A DNA stretch of 22,847 bases from an uncultured bacterium. GTDB taxonomy: Bacteria > Cyanobacteriota > Vampirovibrionia > Gastranaerophilales > Gastranaerophilaceae. Position numbers and translations under genes: made by a program. Positions within the stretch are counted from its first letter, which is position 1, and each line of letters opens with the position of its first letter. Below, in pieces: positions 14,825 through 22,847 of this stretch. Under the pieces are notes generated by a model. The model ran no database searches. It was not told where the DNA came from and saw only the letters and a list, made by a program, of their open reading frames with translations. The stretch lies in contig CANAXK010000005.1 of assembly GCA_947365485.1 (NCBI GenBank), positions 1 through 22,847 on the forward strand. The letters run 5' to 3'.

Positions 14825-16123
14825 CTACGAAATACGTCCCGGAACAACAACTCCGCCCTTAAGGTTCTTTTTGTAGAACTCAACGTGCGGCTGGAGAACG
14901 CTGTCCAAAACTTCCGGAAGCTGTTTGTTCTGCATTACAGCTTCAACAATTTCCTGATAGCATGTAGCAAAAGCTCTAAGCTGTGTTACAGCGCCAGCTG
15001 CTTCTGCTGTCAAGCCGAGTTTTGATGTTTCAACGTATTCTTTGAAGAATGCGCCTGTTGATTCATAAGACTTAGTCAGAGCGCCGATATAAGCCTCTGC
15101 GTTTTCAGAGCAAACACCTCTGTCCACTGGAACAGTAAGCGCAAACACGAGTTTGTTAGCAGGGTTGAAGTGAGCTTCTGCAGAGTGGTGCATTGCATCA
15201 GGAACTTTTGCAACCTGTTTCAAAGTATCTTTTACAGACTCGTTTTGCATTTGAGCATGCCAGTAAACAGTGTTTTCGAACATAGAGCCCATATACTGGT
15301 GGACAGAAGCTTCAATTCCGTTCAATTTAGCGTTAGCCCAGAAGATGCCTTCTTTCAGCGCGTCGTTCAATTCCAAATCAGAAGAAAGTGAAAGCGAAGA
15401 GATTTCCTGTGCAGATTTAAGCATTGATGCCATGTCTTCTTTGCTCATGCCAGCAAAAGCAAGTGTAAACAGAGCGTGGTCATCGAAAGCAGAGAATCTT
15501 CCGCCCACATCATCGTGGATGAACAAATCGCCCAACCATCCGTTTTCATTAGAAGTTCTTCTTAGTTCGCTCTTTTCAGCGTTGCCGTCTGTTACAGCGA
15601 TAAAGTGTTTGCTTGCTGATTTTTTTGCTTCTTCAACAGTTTGACCTTTAGCAACATAAGCGTCTTCGAGCATTTTTTGGATTCTTAAGAATCCGTCTTT
15701 TGTTTCGAATGTTGAGCCTGATTTTGAAGCAATCATGTAGCTTGAAGACAGAACGTCGTTTCCTAACTTAGCAAGGAATCTTTCGAAACTGATTGAATCA
15801 ACATCAGAATAGAACTCAACTTTATCCCCGCAGATGTTCAAGCCGTTGATACCTAACATGTGTTCAACAGTGTGTTTAGAACCGCCGATACCCATAACGC
15901 TCAATTTTTCAGCGCCAGATTGAGACTTTAAGCTTGATGCCAAAGAATAAATATCATCAAGTCTTTTCAATTGTTCCTGAGGCAGATTTACCCAGTTTAA
16001 GAATTTTCCAGGCTGATTAGCTCTTGAAGAAAATTCGTTTACAAACTCAGACACTTTTGAAGAATACTTCGAAAAATCCACGCCTGAGAAAGTTGTTTTT
16101 AAAGATGAACTTTTTGTTAACAT
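14825..16123 (-). CDS. pgi: Glucose-6-phosphate isomerase
   Basis: A 432-residue cytoplasmic enzyme interconverting glucose 6-phosphate and fructose 6-phosphate (glycolysis, gluconeogenesis, sugar-nucleotide supply). Family features include the first sugar-phosphate-binding segment MGIGGSKHTVEHML (from residue 77), the ASKSGSTFET phosphate loop (132-141), the signature DDVGGRFSAFDDHALF (204-219), and the MHHSAEAHFNPANK region with candidate catalytic histidines. Length fits the shorter bacterial/archaeal-style GPI forms. The ATG at 16121-16123 has an AAGGAG site nearby. It looks monocistronic: a terminator follows at 14739-14808, and a possible extended -10 promoter lies 27 bp upstream. It sits next to the glycan operon and could feed it with fructose 6-phosphate, which is inference. 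Confidence 0.93.
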   Translation of the reverse strand: MLTKSSSLKTTFSGVDFSKYSSKVSEFVNEFSSRANQPGKFLNWVNLPQEQLKRLDDIYSLASSLKSQSGAEKLSVMGIGGSKHTVEHMLGINGLNICGDKVEFYSDVDSISFERFLAKLGNDVLSSSYMIASKSGSTFETKDGFLRIQKMLEDAYVAKGQTVEEAKKSASKHFIAVTDGNAEKSELRRTSNENGWLGDLFIHDDVGGRFSAFDDHALFTLAFAGMSKEDMASMLKSAQEISSLSLSSDLELNDALKEGIFWANAKLNGIEASVHQYMGSMFENTVYWHAQMQNESVKDTLKQVAKVPDAMHHSAEAHFNPANKLVFALTVPVDRGVCSENAEAYIGALTKSYESTGAFFKEYVETSKLGLTAEAAGAVTQLRAFATCYQEIVEAVMQNKQLPEVLDSVLQPHVEFYKKNLKGGVVVPGRIS

Positions 16124-16167: not shown

Positions 16168-17118
16168 CTACCAATAACATCCGTTCTCTACTTTTTCAAA
16201 CCCCTTAGGTCTTTCTTCTTCCAGAGGAGAAATCCAGTATTCGTTTATTATATCGTTATAAAGCTCTGCTTCTTCCCACCTTTTTCCTTTAACCCCGAAA
16301 AGAACCTGGGTTGAGCCGCCCATGTGAACAGCCTTCTTGCCGAGGCGTTTACAGTAATCCGCAAGAAAAATCCCGTATGCACCTGCACCAATTAATGCTA
16401 TATCAAAGTCTTGCTTAGAAATTTCTGATTTGGTATATTCAAGTGCTTCAAACCACGATTTAAACGGCAGGCCTTCAACGCAATCATCAATACTCTGAAC
16501 GGGTCTAAGAGTCTTTAATTCAAATTCCGGAAGTGTATCCGGATTTTTGAACAAGAGTTTGCGTTTCTGATACTGCGACTCTATCGATTTTGCAAACGGA
16601 TGGACTACTAGAACTTTTTCCCCTGCAAGTGCCTTACTCCAAGGATTAGTCCCCACGGTTGGATCAATATTGAGTAAGCCTACAAGTTTAGCAGCCGGAG
16701 CATACTTAGTAAGGACAGTTTCTTCACCCTCGTTAAACCAAACCCCGATGACATCAATATTTCTTGTAACCTCAATGAGTTCAGAAGAAAACCTTGAGAG
16801 CATATAATCAGTTGTTGGAAAAAATCCGGCATTACGACGCATATGGATTTTTATAAACTCCGGATATTTAATCATGTCCTCTTTGTTATACAGAAAATAA
16901 TTCAGTGCAGACAATTCTACGCTTCCGTATCTGCATATAAGAGAAGGCTTATCAGCTTTAAGTTCTTTATAAATTATATCGTTTCCGTCTTCGTTTAGAT
17001 AAATGTGTCTGTCGCCATAATTGGATTTTTCAATCCGCACATCCCAGTTCAATTTTTCTTCCCAGCTTTTCTTGCCGCGAATTTTGTCAATAAGTTTTTG
17101 GATGTAATTACATCTCAT
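16168..17118 (-). CDS. GT-D-fold-type (DUF1792-like) putative glycosyltransferase
   Basis: A 316-residue soluble protein. ICRYGSVELSAL (residues 61-72) gives the R-x-G-x-x-E pattern, and DIALIGAGAYGIFLADYCK followed by AVHMGGSTQVLFGVKGKRW is the typical C-terminal half of GT-D/DUF1792-like proteins found in polysaccharide clusters. Family members with known activity transfer sugars onto protein- or lipid-linked glycans. Donor and acceptor cannot be told from sequence. It is the last gene of the three-gene minus operon, 3 bp after the methyltransferase-DUF1796 gene, and ends in WISPLEEERPKGFEKVENGCYW. The ATG at 17116-17118 lies directly after the preceding stop. Confidence is moderate on the enzyme class and low on the reaction. 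Confidence 0.68.
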   Translation of the reverse strand: MRCNYIQKLIDKIRGKKSWEEKLNWDVRIEKSNYGDRHIYLNEDGNDIIYKELKADKPSLICRYGSVELSALNYFLYNKEDMIKYPEFIKIHMRRNAGFFPTTDYMLSRFSSELIEVTRNIDVIGVWFNEGEETVLTKYAPAAKLVGLLNIDPTVGTNPWSKALAGEKVLVVHPFAKSIESQYQKRKLLFKNPDTLPEFELKTLRPVQSIDDCVEGLPFKSWFEALEYTKSEISKQDFDIALIGAGAYGIFLADYCKRLGKKAVHMGGSTQVLFGVKGKRWEEAELYNDIINEYWISPLEEERPKGFEKVENGCYW

Positions 17119-17121
17119 AAA

Positions 17122-18543
17122 TTAATCCTTTTCAGTAATCCTCTTTATGCATTCAGCAATGGCTGATTCAAACAAAAGCCCTTCGTCTGAGGCAAAAAAT
17201 TCTTCTTTATACCAGTTTTTTGAATACTCACCAGCCGGTATAGGAACCTTAATAACTCTTATATTGGAGTCAAGAGGGATTTTAAGTGAATCAATGGAAT
17301 CTATAACCAAAAAATTCAATCTTTTGCACAACTTTTCTAAAACATTATTCAGATTTTCGAAGTTCTCTTTTGTATCTACAAAGTATTCAAAAGGAAGTGT
17401 TTCAACATAAGAAGAATTATTTTCCGGCCCGAGCGGATCTATGTGATAGATAAAAGTCAATTTTATGTTATTCTGATTTGCTTTTTTAACTGTACTTCTA
17501 AAATTCTCAATTCGCTTTTTATATCTTTTGATAAGCTCTTGCTTTTTCTTACAGTCTTCATCATGCATAAATAAAACGCCAAATTTAGTGTTGTACCAGC
17601 AATTTAACTCTTTGTGCCACTCTAGATTATCAAAAAAGCCTTTAAAATCATTGTTCAGAAAGTGTATGACCGATTTAAGCGGAGTCACGCACAAATCAAA
17701 AGGAAGCGAAAGATATCCGTCTATTTTTCTTGGTATAAGGCTGTATCTTGCAGCTATAGAACGAACAAAACAGTTTGTGCCCAGAGAAATTATTCTCTGA
17801 CAACATTTTTTATTATTTCTTTCATAATCATTATAAAAAACAGGATAATTCAAATTATACCGAAGCTGGTTTACGAACTTTTTATATGCAATGACAAACA
17901 TATTTGGGGTAAGGATAATATCCTTTAAGCCAAATTCAAGTTTGCAGAGTTCATACCAGGTTTGTTTGAGCTCTGTAATTTTCTCATTTTCCACATGAGA
18001 ACATCTAATCGATGGTTTCGGAAAATTTGCATTTACAAGCACATATTCTATCGATGTTTTTGTATATGCACATTTATGAGTAAAATCTGCATATCTAAAA
18101 TAAGAAGATATCGGAGTCAGTGCATTAGGTACTGAGAGCCCGATAAAACCTTCGTCAGTAAGATGATTGAAAACTTCGTTTAAAAACTCTATTTGCTTGT
18201 CCTTGTCAATATGTTCTAAAACATCAAAGAAATAAATAACATCATACTTTTCTTTAGAGGACTTTAATATCTCCAGCGCATCACCATTAATTACGTTTAG
18301 ATTTTTAGCCCTTGCTTCTTCTACCAAATCAGCATCGTATTCAATTCCGGTTAAATTATTGTACCCATTTTCTCTTAAAAACTCCATAAGAAACCCATTG
18401 GCACACCCCAACTCCAGTATACGTGCGTCTTTACTCTTAGGATACAGCCCGTGAATCTCGAAAAATGCCTGCCACTGTTTTTGTTTTTCGCACTTATCAA
18501 GCATTGCCTGCTGCTTGTCATAGAAATCTTTATACTTATTCAA
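17122..18543 (-). CDS. Methyltransferase fused to a DUF1796 (papain-like) domain
   Basis: A 473-residue two-domain protein. Residues about 1-215 form a class I SAM-dependent methyltransferase: motif I RILELGCANG (41-50), acidic motif GIEYD (66-70), GDALEIL (87-93) and YDVIYFFDVLEHID (100-113). Residues about 248-470 match DUF1796, listed as putative papain-like cysteine peptidases: ISLGTNCFVRSIAARYSLI with candidate nucleophile Cys258, then SLPFDLCVTP and a His-containing FGVLFMHDEDC. DUF1796 is common in glycan clusters, where protease activity has not been shown. The methyltransferase half could modify a sugar or cap a glycan chain. It starts 9 bp after the large glycosyltransferase gene and ends 3 bp before the GT-D gene. 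Confidence 0.8.
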   Translation of the reverse strand: MNKYKDFYDKQQAMLDKCEKQKQWQAFFEIHGLYPKSKDARILELGCANGFLMEFLRENGYNNLTGIEYDADLVEEARAKNLNVINGDALEILKSSKEKYDVIYFFDVLEHIDKDKQIEFLNEVFNHLTDEGFIGLSVPNALTPISSYFRYADFTHKCAYTKTSIEYVLVNANFPKPSIRCSHVENEKITELKQTWYELCKLEFGLKDIILTPNMFVIAYKKFVNQLRYNLNYPVFYNDYERNNKKCCQRIISLGTNCFVRSIAARYSLIPRKIDGYLSLPFDLCVTPLKSVIHFLNNDFKGFFDNLEWHKELNCWYNTKFGVLFMHDEDCKKKQELIKRYKKRIENFRSTVKKANQNNIKLTFIYHIDPLGPENNSSYVETLPFEYFVDTKENFENLNNVLEKLCKRLNFLVIDSIDSLKIPLDSNIRVIKVPIPAGEYSKNWYKEEFFASDEGLLFESAIAECIKRITEKD

Positions 18544-18552
18544 AATTTCCTC

Positions 18553-20811
18553 CTAACACCTTGTAACAAGATTGTATATTCCAGGCACAAAATTTTTGAA
18601 CGAAAACTCTGTTTCTACAGATTCTTGAGCAATCTTTCCAAGCAAGACACCCTTCTCTCTATAATCATACAATTCCCGTAAATACCCGGCAGCCATATCC
18701 AAATCCGGCTCTGCCCAGTATTCTACATCCTTATAAGTATCAAAGTCTGTATCAGGTTTAACCATTGCTGCATCAACAAGAAGCGAGTTTTCTTTGTTCA
18801 TAAATTCAAGATTCCCGCTGTAATTTGTTGCAATAACAGGCTTTTGCAGAGCCATTGCCTCTATACAGCCCATCCCGAGTCCTTCACCGCGGTGGAGTGA
18901 CATGTATGTGTCACAAGCATTCATCAGTGAAATAAACTCTTTTCGTGATAAGAACTTGTCTATTATTACAACGCGCTCTTGCATTCCAAGCTCGTTAACA
19001 AGATTCATAAATTGAAGCTTATTCTTGTTATGATTATCCGCATTTGTAGTTTTCAAAACCAAAACAGCGTCTTTGTTATCCTTGAAAGCTTTTTCAAATG
19101 CCCTTAACACAGCTTCGGGATTTTTTCTGTCATAGCTCGAGTTGTAATCAAAATTGAAAAACACCGCAAACGCATCTTTGTCGATTCCGTATTTTGTGCG
19201 CACAATTTCTCGTGATTCAAGCTCGTCCCAGTTTTTAGAAAACGCATAAGGTATTTTTGTAATCTTGAACCCTTCCGGCGCAGATTTTTCAAGCCCGCGT
19301 TCTATGTGTTCTGTGCTTACAATAACTTCGTCTAAATACTTGAACGCATCTGAATATCTATCAAACCCGCTTTCAAATTCCCAATACCAGTTTGCTGCAT
19401 TGTATTTGTTTTTAAACAAATTTTCATTATGTTTGTAAATCACAGGAATTTGGTCTGCGTTAACAAAAAATAGGTTTGTGTCGTAGATAGGCTCTTCAAC
19501 TATGTATTCTTGAAATTCTACCATTTCAGCGTCAGGAATCTTTTTTGCTCCGGATTCAATCTTATAAATTGAAAAAGGTATGCCGCATTGTTTCAGCTTC
19601 TTGACGGTCGCCCTTGCAACCTCACCGATTGAGTGCATTTCATTAATGTATCCAATAACGTTGATACCCAAATTCTGTTTTGGCTTTGGTATATAAAACT
19701 GGTTGATGAGCCACCAAAAAGCATGCCGGATTTTATGCTTTTTAAATAATAACTTTCCATTAAATATTGAAAGTTTTTTCTTAATCATTTTACCATCAGC
19801 ATTATATAGAGAAATCTTTTCTTTTTTTAGTTTGTTATAAAAAATTTCTCTGTAGCCATCTTTAATTTTTACATTTGTACCAGGAATGTAATTAAAATGG
19901 TACTCGCAAGCAGCAAGCACATCTGCATTTCGACTATTAACATCATCCAGGTATTCAGTGAAGAGCTGTTTCAAATCTTCTTTTCTGTCTGATAATTTAA
20001 ATCTTGATTGATACTTAGAAATCTTGTCCATATCCTTGCGATTCAGCCCGCTAAAGTGGTAGAACACAAGCTCGTCATCATTTGCATACCAGGCTCCGTC
20101 ACGGTTTGTGATAACCCTTTCATGCAGGTTCCAGTAAGCAGCGTTATATCCCCTGTTTTTAAAGATATACACCTTGTCAAACAGACACGGAAACCAGTCA
20201 GACCATCTCTGGTCGGTAAATAGCGCATCTTTTGGTTTTGCATAGCATTTGTCATAAAGCTGCTCCATCCAAAATTCAGCAAGTCTGTTTCCGTTTTCTG
20301 TATTTTTCACCGCAATGAACCCGCAGTTGCAAATTCCGGCATGCATAATTGTTTGTAATTTTTGTTCCTTACCGTCGTTAGGATATGGTTCAACCATGTG
20401 CGGAGTAAGAACCACATCCCAAGTATCAAGAAGGTTGTCAAGTTTTTCAATCGGACTGTAGAATTTGATATCAGGATCTATATAAATAACTTTGTTATAG
20501 CCTTTTTTGAACAGGTATTTCATACAGTAAGGTTTGATTGCTGTATTGTACTCAAGAATGTTGTATCTTGCGCACATATCATTCAAAGGCGCATTAGGGA
20601 GTTCGTTTTCGATTTCCTTAAAGAACCTGATATCAATGTCCTGACAAATCAGGTTTTCCAGGTATTTCATTATATCTTTATTTGAAATTTCATCTGCTAT
20701 AAAGATAATAAAATCATAATTATCGTTATGTTTGAGAAAGGAATCTCTAACTGTCAATGCGTAGTGCAAGTAGTTAAGTGATGATATGGTGTAAATCGCG
20801 TTCTGTCTCAT
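18553..20811 (-). CDS. Two-domain glycosyltransferase (GT8-like plus GT4)
   Basis: A 752-residue fusion. The N-terminal third (about 1-270) resembles GT-A/GT8-type nucleotide-sugar transferases: AIYTISSLNYLHYALTVRDS, a D-x-D motif in VIYIDPDIKF (Asp112, Asp114), and HAGICNCGFIAVKN. A linker with basic residues follows. The C-terminal half (from about 378, LGINVIGYINEMHSIGEVARA) is a GT-B/GT4 enzyme with the retaining E-x7-E motif in HRGEGLGMGCIEAM (Glu643, Glu651). It probably adds two sugars in sequence to a surface glycan; specificity unknown. It is the first gene of the operon. GGGAG precedes the ATG at 20809-20811. Upstream is the putative invertible promoter segment, whose clear promoter now faces this gene. 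Confidence 0.85.
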   Translation of the reverse strand: MRQNAIYTISSLNYLHYALTVRDSFLKHNDNYDFIIFIADEISNKDIMKYLENLICQDIDIRFFKEIENELPNAPLNDMCARYNILEYNTAIKPYCMKYLFKKGYNKVIYIDPDIKFYSPIEKLDNLLDTWDVVLTPHMVEPYPNDGKEQKLQTIMHAGICNCGFIAVKNTENGNRLAEFWMEQLYDKCYAKPKDALFTDQRWSDWFPCLFDKVYIFKNRGYNAAYWNLHERVITNRDGAWYANDDELVFYHFSGLNRKDMDKISKYQSRFKLSDRKEDLKQLFTEYLDDVNSRNADVLAACEYHFNYIPGTNVKIKDGYREIFYNKLKKEKISLYNADGKMIKKKLSIFNGKLLFKKHKIRHAFWWLINQFYIPKPKQNLGINVIGYINEMHSIGEVARATVKKLKQCGIPFSIYKIESGAKKIPDAEMVEFQEYIVEEPIYDTNLFFVNADQIPVIYKHNENLFKNKYNAANWYWEFESGFDRYSDAFKYLDEVIVSTEHIERGLEKSAPEGFKITKIPYAFSKNWDELESREIVRTKYGIDKDAFAVFFNFDYNSSYDRKNPEAVLRAFEKAFKDNKDAVLVLKTTNADNHNKNKLQFMNLVNELGMQERVVIIDKFLSRKEFISLMNACDTYMSLHRGEGLGMGCIEAMALQKPVIATNYSGNLEFMNKENSLLVDAAMVKPDTDFDTYKDVEYWAEPDLDMAAGYLRELYDYREKGVLLGKIAQESVETEFSFKNFVPGIYNLVTRC

Positions 20812-20832
20812 AAACTCCCTTTAAAGTTGTTA

Positions 20833-20856
20833 TCAACACAATACACATTGTGTTGA
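20833..20856. repeat. Left 24-bp inverted repeat (putative inversion site)
   Basis: Ten-bp arms TCAACACAAT and ATTGTGTTGA surround a 4-bp core ACAC. The whole 24 bp is the exact reverse complement of 20976-20999. It lies 21 bp upstream of the start codon of the 752-residue glycosyltransferase gene and within its likely 5' leader, where it would also form a 10-bp hairpin with a 4-nt loop. GTTA directly to its left (20829-20832) is repeated in the same orientation left of the right site. Confidence 0.85.
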
Positions 20857-20975
20857 ATAAATTGATAAATTAATTATATCACAAAGAAAGAGGCATAATA
20901 TATTTTGTTAAATATTCTTAATAATTAGCTTAGGTTTTGTCAGCGACTTACTAGGCGTAAGAGTTTTTAGCGTTA
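20857..20975. other. Putative invertible promoter segment between divergent glycan operons
   Basis: These 119 bp lie between two 24-bp sites that are exact reverse complements. The segment is AT-rich and non-coding, and contains one clear promoter that reads toward the minus-strand operon. If the segment flipped, the same promoter would face the + strand glycosyltransferase at an equivalent distance. This is the layout of phase-variable promoters flipped by site-specific recombinases. No recombinase gene is in the window and both orientations cannot be seen from one sequence, so inversion is inferred. A palindromic-operator explanation remains possible. Confidence 0.55.
20873..20881 (-). promoter_or_regulatory. 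Extended -10 promoter inside the putative invertible segment
   Basis: On the minus strand TGATATAAT (20881-20873) is a perfect TGn-TATAAT extended -10. Transcription would begin near 20866, about 10 bp before the left inverted repeat and about 55 bp before the ATG at 20811. The 15-mer TGTGATATAATTAAT here is identical to that upstream of the pseudopilin gene (11277-11291). No good -35 box is seen, as is common for extended -10 promoters. I found no promoter of comparable quality on the + strand before the right repeat. Confidence 0.6.
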
Positions 20976-20999
20976 TCAACACAATGTGTATTGTGTTGA
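20976..20999. repeat. Right 24-bp inverted repeat (putative inversion site)
   Basis: The arms TCAACACAAT and ATTGTGTTGA are the same as at the left site, but the core is GTGT instead of ACAC, which makes the site the exact reverse complement of 20833-20856. It ends 22 bp before the ATG at 21022, mirroring the 21 bp on the left side. An open frame starting at GTG 20986 runs through it into the glycosyltransferase, but the Shine-Dalgarno position favours the downstream ATG. Confidence 0.85.
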
Positions 21000-21021
21000 G
21001 CTAAAAGCGGAGAAGGATATT

Positions 21022-22302
21022 ATGAAAGAGTTTAATTTACTTTATGATGCTAGCGTAATTGCAAACGGGCTTAACAAAGATTCTAACAGAAGTGGTATTT
21101 ATTTTACAGCCTTAAATATCTTAAAAGAATTAGCTGAAAGAAATGACATTAAGCTATCTTTATACTCTTCTTCTCGTAACTACAATGATTTGTGCGAAGT
21201 CTTAAAATCAGAAATGCCCCAAAAAAGTTTTGATATAATAACAGACAAGAAAAATATAGCATATATAAAATTAAAAGAGAAAAGAAATGGTTTTAAAAAT
21301 CAGAATAAGCCGGTGCGCAAAATCATATTTCAAATTTTGTGCCTATTGTATTCACCATTGGCTCATGCTCATGAAAAATTTTTGGGGTATATGACCAAAT
21401 ACAAGCTAGCAAATGTTTCTTCTTTTTTATCTCCCTTATTCTTAATCCCTGATAAAATTCAAAAATATCCTAAAAAAAAATTTGTCATACTCTATGATAT
21501 GATTCCTTATCTGTTTCCAGATAAACACAAAGATTCAAATCCGGATTCTTTGTATTTCCAGCTGTTAGAATCATTGAACAGTAGCAATTACTATATTGCG
21601 ATATCTGAAAATACCCGACAAGACTTTTTAAAGCATTGTAACCAGATTGACCGTAATAAAATCATTACATCGCTACTTGCTTGCAGTGAAAGTTTTGCAC
21701 CCATCTCCAAGGGTGACATTTTACGAATAAAAGAAAAATATAGAGTACCACAGGAGCAGAAATATATCTTTAGTCTTTGTACATTAGAGCCGCGTAAAAA
21801 TCTTGTACGTGCAGTTAAAACATTTATAAAGTTCATCCAAGAAAATAAGATTGATGACTTAGTGTTTGTTCTTGGTGGCGGTCACTGGGATGAATTTATT
21901 TCATTAATTGAAAAAGAGATAGAAAATCTTGGAAACTATAAAAACAAAATAATTAGAGCTGGATATATTGAAGACGAAGATTTACCAGCACTATATAGTG
22001 GAGCAGAATGGTTTGTATACACTTCCATGTACGAAGGCTTCGGGCTTCCTCCACTTGAAGCGATGTCCTGCGGCTGCCCGGTTATTACATCAAATAACTC
22101 TTCGCTTCCCGAAGTAGTTGGCGATGCTGGAATTATGATTGACTGGGATAGCGATGAACAGCATATCAAGGCCTATGAAAAATATTACTATGACAAAGAC
22201 TTAAGGGAACAATTTGCTAAAAAAGGGCTTGAAAGAGCAAAGCTGTTTTCTTGGGATAAATGTGTAAATGCAATAATTACCGAAATGACAAGGGTTGGTT
22301 GA
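21022..22302 (+). CDS. GT4-family glycosyltransferase
   Basis: A 426-residue GT-B-fold glycosyltransferase of the mannosyltransferase/rhamnosyltransferase-like GT4 type. The N-terminal domain includes [18 protein letters not shown] and [16 protein letters not shown]. The C-terminal domain has [20 protein letters not shown], then the E-x7-E motif in [12 protein letters not shown] (Glu338, Glu346) and the [11 protein letters not shown] segment. It probably adds a sugar from a nucleotide donor to a growing surface glycan at the inner face of the membrane. I chose the ATG at 21022 over upstream in-frame codons because GGAGAAGGA lies just before it. The next gene starts 1 bp after its TGA. Promoter: none convincing in the present orientation of the upstream segment. 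Confidence 0.88.
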
Positions 22303-22303
22303 T

Positions 22304-22847
22304 ATGAATAAATTTAAACTTTTTCTTTTAAATCTTGTCCCATCCAAAAAATGGCGACAAATAATAAAAACACATTATCAAACCCTTCATACAAAAGATT
22401 TTATTTACAAATCAAAACCCTTGAAACTTTTTCAGTCAGACTACAATTGTGGTTATTATGAAAACCGAATGTCTGAGCGTGCTGTTGAAATGGCCATCAC
22501 GAAATTATGGCTAGACAAGATTGACGGCGAAATAACCGAATTAGGTGCCGTTAGCCCATATTATTTTCCGCGTGCTGTCACCCATGTATGCGATCCTTAC
22601 GACTCACATAAAAGTGTTGATCTAAAATGTTCGCTTTTTGATTTGGACTTATCTGGAAAAAACATTCTATGCATATCTACTATTGAACATATTGCAACCG
22701 GTGATTACGGCGTTGCAATAAATACAGCAGAATCACCTCTTTTGGCCTTAAAAAAGATTTTAAACGAAGCTTCTAACAGCCTTATAACATTTCCTGTTGG
22801 AGTAAATACAGAATTAGATAACTATTTTTCTAACCAAAAGTATCTTG
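22304..22847 (+). CDS. Methyltransferase-like protein, 3' end outside window
   Basis: The frame is open from the ATG at 22304-22306 to the window end (181 complete codons), 1 bp after the glycosyltransferase stop, so it is in the same operon. After a basic N-terminus, EITELGAVSPYYF (residues 76-88) resembles a motif I of class I methyltransferases. It is followed by CDPYD, and then by LSGKNILCISTIEHIATGDYG (117-136), which is like the 'STIEHIG' segment of glycan-cluster methyltransferase-type proteins. Motif I is diverged (the usual G-x-G is missing), so binding of SAM is not certain. There is no stop or frameshift in the visible part. Likely role: modification of the surface glycan; inferred from neighbours. 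Confidence 0.62.
   Translation, partial: MNKFKLFLLNLVPSKKWRQIIKTHYQTLHTKDFIYKSKPLKLFQSDYNCGYYENRMSERAVEMAITKLWLDKIDGEITELGAVSPYYFPRAVTHVCDPYDSHKSVDLKCSLFDLDLSGKNILCISTIEHIATGDYGVAINTAESPLLALKKILNEASNSLITFPVGVNTELDNYFSNQKYL

Follow-up and report, generated by a model that had tools for sequence, protein, structure and literature searches.

A pair of palindromes between two glycan operons

Could a short non-coding segment between two divergent glycosyltransferase operons be a promoter that is turned around by recombination, and which genes would it serve in either state? The question is raised by a window (the whole stretch of DNA analysed) of 22,847 nucleotides from an uncultured member of the Gastranaerophilales, which are gut relatives of cyanobacteria. 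NCBI taxonomy places this order within Candidatus Melainabacteria. The window's genome, designated G000, is an incomplete MAG (84% complete) whose 227 contigs add up to 1.63 Mb. Our reading, with a probability of roughly 0.88, is that positions 20833–20999 form an invertible promoter (inverton), one that probably chooses between two glycan operons.

The left site (20833–20856, plus strand), a member of a recurring family of paired sites, and the right site (20976–20999, minus strand) are perfect reverse complements of one another. Both consist of arms TCAACACAAT/ATTGTGTTGA around a 4-nt core, ACAC on the left and GTGT (ACAC on the minus strand) on the right, and they enclose 119 nt of non-coding DNA (20857–20975). 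The original prediction had described the 24-nt sites, their coordinates, arms, cores, and spacing in these terms, and every element stood when re-checked; the paired-site observation is correct and beyond chance. These inverted repeats around a short intergenic segment are the only inverted pair found in the whole window (scanned with a 14-nt exact seed for arms of 18 nt or longer, separated by no more than 900 nt), and the segment contains no open reading frame (ORF) of at least 80 aa.

Glycan genes had also been claimed on either side, which Pfam matches and the ORF list bear out. The minus-strand operon begins with a 752-aa glycosyltransferase (18553–20811) with a GT8-like N terminus and a GT4-like C terminus, followed by a 473-aa methyltransferase with a weak DUF1796 match (17122–18543) and a 316-aa GT-D-like protein (16168–17118). 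A further gene on the same strand, 44 nt beyond this operon (14825–16123), resembles that for glucose-6-phosphate isomerase, an identity read from its sequence. The plus-strand operon comprises a 426-aa Glycos_transf_1 glycosyltransferase (21022–22302) and a gene without a Pfam match (22295–22847), which is cut by the contig end. Start codons lie 21 nt (minus operon) and 22 nt (plus gene) from the respective sites, the plus gene being taken to start at the ATG at 21022 rather than at the GTG of the ORF list (20986), which is inside the right site. Ribosome-binding-like stretches are present outside the segment at AGGGAG (20815–20820, minus strand) and GGAG (21009–21012, plus strand).

Orientation of the segment in related genomes

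Two relatives allow the orientation of the segment to be compared: MGG12104 (G087 and G089, apparently one genome) and MGG12149 (G088). Two records also align closely: CATLDC010000022.1 with the window over 2.3 kb at 94%, and CATLEG010000046.1 with contig C83 of G000 over 3.2 kb at 96%. A flipped orientation in related genomes had been proposed as a check, and MGG12104 carries the segment reversed, whereas the window and MGG12149 share one orientation. Between MGG12104 and MGG12149, the glycosyltransferase-side flank is identical over 104 of 104 nt (all of the comparable flank), as is the site, and the segments agree at 104 of 104 nt with one reversed versus 40 of 104 nt unreversed. The MGG12104 contig stops 104 nt into the segment, leaving a single junction visible. 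Against the window itself, 1909 of 2000 nt are identical along the 2-kb glycosyltransferase-side flank of MGG12104, after which the segment aligns in reverse. By this comparison of relatives, with one junction in the reversed copy, inversion is established and well supported.

Opposite orientations next to an identical flank argue strongly against a reading in which nothing flips and the palindromes serve a dimeric regulator as operators, one on each side of a divergent promoter, even though each site—a palindrome with 10-bp arms near a start codon—has the form that such an operator would take.

Within a single assembly, that of G004, 77 nt comprising a segment end and its site, at another locus of the site family, continue into one flank on contig C133 and into another on C155. 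Such a fork is the expected assembler output if both orientations were present in the sample, and suggests as much; a duplicated segment could also explain it. Contig ends are also near sites unusually often: 16 of 59 sites are no more than 400 nt from one, where 3.6 would be expected, an excess to which repeated segment sequences may contribute. At the C83 switch, G000 and MGG12149 share one orientation. One further comparison, G025:C20 with G010:C61, has a 99.5% identical flank and a reversed segment; its junction is 5 nt off and the core itself is reversed, and it was not counted as a clean flip.

A family of paired sites

Other copies of the arms had been suggested as something to look for, and a search of G000 with up to three mismatches returned two further pairs, each at two mismatches and both beside glycosyltransferase genes. 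On contig C24, the sites are 174 nt apart, between a side with GT2 and LicD-like genes (LicD read from sequence) and a tetratricopeptide repeat (TPR) gene starting 474 nt off. On contig C83, they are 142 nt apart, with a Gly_transf_sug gene and then a GDP-mannose dehydratase-like gene (again read from sequence) on one side and a gene for a 376-aa protein without a Pfam match on the other. The matched centre of the C24 pair is 8 nt long (TTATTACT), and thus the crossover region may exceed the 4-nt core.

Across the genus, the arms occur with at most one mismatch in 9 of 65 genomes, at 57 sites in total; the same arms read backwards, as a control, gave none in all 65, and none of 23 genomes outside the genus contained the arms. 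An exact search of GTDB species genomes returned 89 stretches versus around 4 expected with uniform bases, and 41 of these (a hand count) carry titles naming Gastranaerophilales, Gastranaerophilus, or Melainabacteria. MAGs titled Fusobacterium, Roseburia, and Mediterraneibacter (L113, L115, L129, L145, L154, L166, and others) also contain sites with these arms, and several of those sites are paired; some of these titles may be wrong, or the arms may be common to several phyla.

In all, 63 sites were examined: the 57 genus sites, two of C24, and four of G088. They fall into 26 pairs, with 48 of the 63 counted as paired, and 15 singles, 11 of which lie less than 400 nt from a contig end. Two singles, G010:C48 and G010:C75, have matching cores (GTCT/AGAC) and lie on contigs with an identical overlap of 127 nt, and hence form one additional pair. 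Away from contig ends there are four singles, two partnerless (G004:C71 and G076:C30) and two with degenerate partners (G075:C3 and G010:C109). The original prediction had set its switch against the same palindromes standing singly, as operators, at other promoters; at other loci they are mostly paired. The four singles away from contig ends are nevertheless what the operator reading has in its favour here.

The cores bear on the matter more directly. Of the 26 pairs, 23 have 4-nt cores that are reverse complements of each other, none has identical cores, and three have unrelated ones (G025:C20, G025:C38, and G059:C174), compared with 23 matches among 650 when cores are paired across loci. Without the two G088 pairs, which are homologues of those in G000, the count is 21 of 24. 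That the cores are reverse-complementary within pairs implies site-specific recombination at these sites. Operators have no need for cores that differ between loci and are reverse-complementary within a pair, and similar sites lie directly behind recombinase genes; the operator reading is very improbable. Matched cores and a reversed segment are likewise left unexplained if the sites are hairpins in the 5′ leader of the mRNA, acting as an attenuator or stability element that both leaders need. Each site could fold into a 10-bp hairpin; however, folding is little better than in shuffled sequences (z of −1.27, with 21 of 200 shuffles equal or better) and no terminator-like site was found, which makes leader hairpins an extremely improbable account.

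The central 8 nt are also matched in 23 of the 26 pairs. Tyrosine recombinases exchange strands across 6–8 nt and serine recombinases across 2 nt, and a matched centre of 8 nt fits a tyrosine recombinase better. Selection within a genome for cores private to each locus was considered and found no support: two loci of the same genome have a core in common (3 of 73 locus pairs) as frequently as two from different genomes (20 of 423), on a hand-typed list that includes contig-end sites and the left cores of G025:C20 and C38 and omits G075, G087, G088, G059:C174, and G076:C30.

Partner genes with Pfam matches encode glycosyltransferases and YadA-head proteins, as well as a seryl-tRNA synthetase, a GGDEF protein, a short-chain dehydrogenase, and ketopantoate-reductase-like proteins (32 of the 37 outward ORFs were scanned: 30 together and the window's two separately). 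The site family is thus found as pairs at several other glycan and adhesin-like loci of the genome and genus, which it presumably controls. Three switch-side proteins (L035 2179–3810, L046 3637–5526, and L051 2459–4012) carry a Peptidase_S74 chaperone domain together with YadA head repeats and, at the N terminus, a pilin-type methylation motif, which we consider an unusual combination.

A candidate recombinase

The original prediction had left the enzyme as either a tyrosine or a serine recombinase, and only the first was found in the genome: G000 has six tyrosine recombinase matches and none to the resolvase domain PF00239. A serine recombinase of the Hin or Mpi type was accordingly set aside, on the evidence of an assembly that is 84% complete. 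Three of the six matches are enzymes of around 180 aa, on contigs C118, C42, and C182. The likeliest recombinase for these sites in G000 may be the 180-aa enzyme on C182, a sequence-based assignment that has about an even chance of being right.

The C182 enzyme is a short form without an N-terminal domain and has its catalytic residues present; R40, K67, H128, R131, H154, and Y163, which we take to be these residues, are invariant in an eight-row alignment. It falls below the NCBIfam cut-offs for DNA invertases (39.2 versus 222 bits for PRK09871 and 34.9 versus 221 bits for PRK09870), and the best of four proteins reached 53.8 bits against the 222-bit cut-off for tyrosine-type DNA invertases. 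In a tree of retrieved rows only, rather than of all paralogues found, it belongs to clade B with support of 95/93. Six of the nine members of this clade have CAACA-type sites starting 7–40 nt behind the gene, with 0–4 mismatches (L157, L200, L087, L083, L085, and L095); the three members without an arm-like site behind the gene are C182, its MGG12104 orthologue, and G015:C10, and the 500 nt around C182 and around that orthologue are free of sites. Behind the C118 gene, the arms are more diverged, with five mismatches.

Clade A comprises enzymes from G004, G010, G015, G025, and G076 that are 77%–100% identical to that of G004, the gene for which is followed after 10 nt by a switch with these arms. 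Sites occur in all five genomes with a clade-A enzyme versus 4 of 60 others, an association in which only G076 is independent, the other four genomes having been chosen as having sites. The G000 assembly contains no clade-A enzyme, the best match being 61%. The assignment to C182 is weakened because MGG12149 and G090 possess sites yet have no clade-A or clade-B enzyme among their matches, and because some enzymes that belong to neither clade (L054/L202, L073, L091, L098/L099, and L101) are likewise followed by arm-like sites, with 2–5 mismatches.

Around recombinase genes, inverted pairs lie within 500 nt downstream at 16 of 46 loci and upstream at 1 of 46; these counts include rows that repeat one gene or its orthologues (L087/L230, L054/L202, and L098/L099) and some stretches that are cut by contig ends. 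Further recombinase paralogues are followed immediately by inverted pairs whose arms differ (L074 1223–1441, L105 1259–1455, and L054 44–175), as though every paralogue used a site code of its own. At L073 (1362–2096, G025:C16), the inverted pair TAACACAATGTAAATTGTGTTA encloses the recombinase gene itself, which may therefore flip as well. The same layout is seen in a Eubacterium MAG (L196, 2228–3580), where arms of the CAACACAAT type enclose a recombinase with 36% identity.

Predicted promoter and output of the proposed switch

A promoter probably resides within the segment. The best candidate is a promoter-like extended −10 element, TGATATAAT (20873–20881, minus strand), a TG-extended TATAAT 17 nt inside the left site that would read towards the minus operon in the present orientation; its −35 is poor and matches at two of six positions. 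A weaker −10 candidate in the opposite direction lies 72 nt inside. A generic promoter scan gave no excess (three found versus 2.2 in shuffles) and did not list the element at 20873–20881. In 13 of 26 segments, a count made without a shuffled control, a TGTACA/TATACA box precedes a TG-extended −10 by 16–17 nt and lies 9–18 nt inside one site; none of the three G000 segments has such a box. The segment end with the predicted promoter is the same in the window and MGG12149, and the other end has diverged. Since the candidate −10 sits near the left end and reads left, the minus operon is probably on in this assembly.

The mechanism that we propose is as follows. A trans-acting tyrosine recombinase would bring the two palindromic sites together in inverted alignment, and strand exchange in the asymmetric centre would reverse the 119-nt segment. 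A single promoter in the segment, at present near its left end and reading left, would drive the minus operon (GT8/GT4 fusion, methyltransferase, and GT-D-like protein) in the present orientation and the plus operon (GT4-type) in the flipped one. The layout suggests that probably only one of the two operons is expressed in either orientation, because the ribosome-binding-like sites stay outside the segment and almost no other DNA could hold a promoter.

A true inversion could instead turn only the minus operon on and off, with the plus operon served by read-through or internal promoters. This would suit the 15 of 26 pairs that have an outward ORF of at least 80 aa within 700 nt on one side only (in 4 of these, the contig stops no more than 235 nt away on the opposite side), and also the DNA immediately past the right site, which is unmatched between the window and MGG12149. 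Here, however, both genes start 21–22 nt from a site and each has its own ribosome-binding-like stretch; five of the 26 pairs have outward ORFs less than 60 nt away on both sides (G000:C5, G000:C83, G010:C79, G076:C23 at 18345, and G088:C46 at 11721); and the gene beyond the right site in MGG12149 again encodes a Glycos_transf_1 protein. On/off control alone is unlikely on these grounds. The either/or layout that we favour would make the switch a selector of two coats rather than an on/off control.

Relation to known inversion systems

In Escherichia coli, the fimS element acted on by FimB and FimE is a short non-coding promoter segment between inverted repeats. The present segment has the same form, with a predicted promoter, and candidate C182 resembles FimB and FimE as a short tyrosine recombinase without an N-terminal domain. 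It differs from fimS in lying between two glycan operons and in having arms that recur at several loci, and the candidates from FimB and FimE in scoring far below the NCBIfam tyrosine-type invertase cut-offs. The multi-locus capsule invertons of Bacteroides fragilis are flipped by the serine recombinase Mpi. There, as here, several surface-polysaccharide loci share one arm family, which implies a trans-acting enzyme; in G000, however, a serine recombinase domain was not detected. Inversion of the B. fragilis capsule is mentioned in PMC11868660. The switches of Clostridioides difficile (RecV and others) are intergenic and number several per genome, with a tyrosine recombinase and two switches with common repeats, according to PMC5903667. 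The likeness extends to several intergenic switches per genome and a candidate tyrosine recombinase, whereas phylum and targets are different, more loci share arms here, and cores differ between loci. PMC5903667 also lists phyla with inversion signatures; the word Cyanobacteria is absent from its main text.

The kind of switch is already known; the lineage and the two-operon layout are new. In the open-access literature searched, no report was found of phase variation or recombinase-mediated inversion in Gastranaerophilales, and for Melainabacteria with phase variation only a flagellin survey was found there. If the switch works as proposed, these bacteria would, like Bacteroides and Clostridia, use programmed inversion to vary their surface glycans, and both the enzyme family and the site family are directly testable here.

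A broader picture, which could as easily hold as fail, is of a previously undescribed genus-wide phase-variation system in the Gastranaerophilales, in which short tyrosine recombinase paralogues have multiplied, many with their own switch behind the gene and with differing arms. The CAACACAAT arms would then mark one regulon that flips glycosyltransferase and adhesin-like promoters, including true either/or glycan selectors. In MGG12149 (L233 11721–16358), a C83-type and a window-type switch lie on one contig, 4.5 kb apart from start to start; two selectors so placed would, if this picture is true, give four glycan states.
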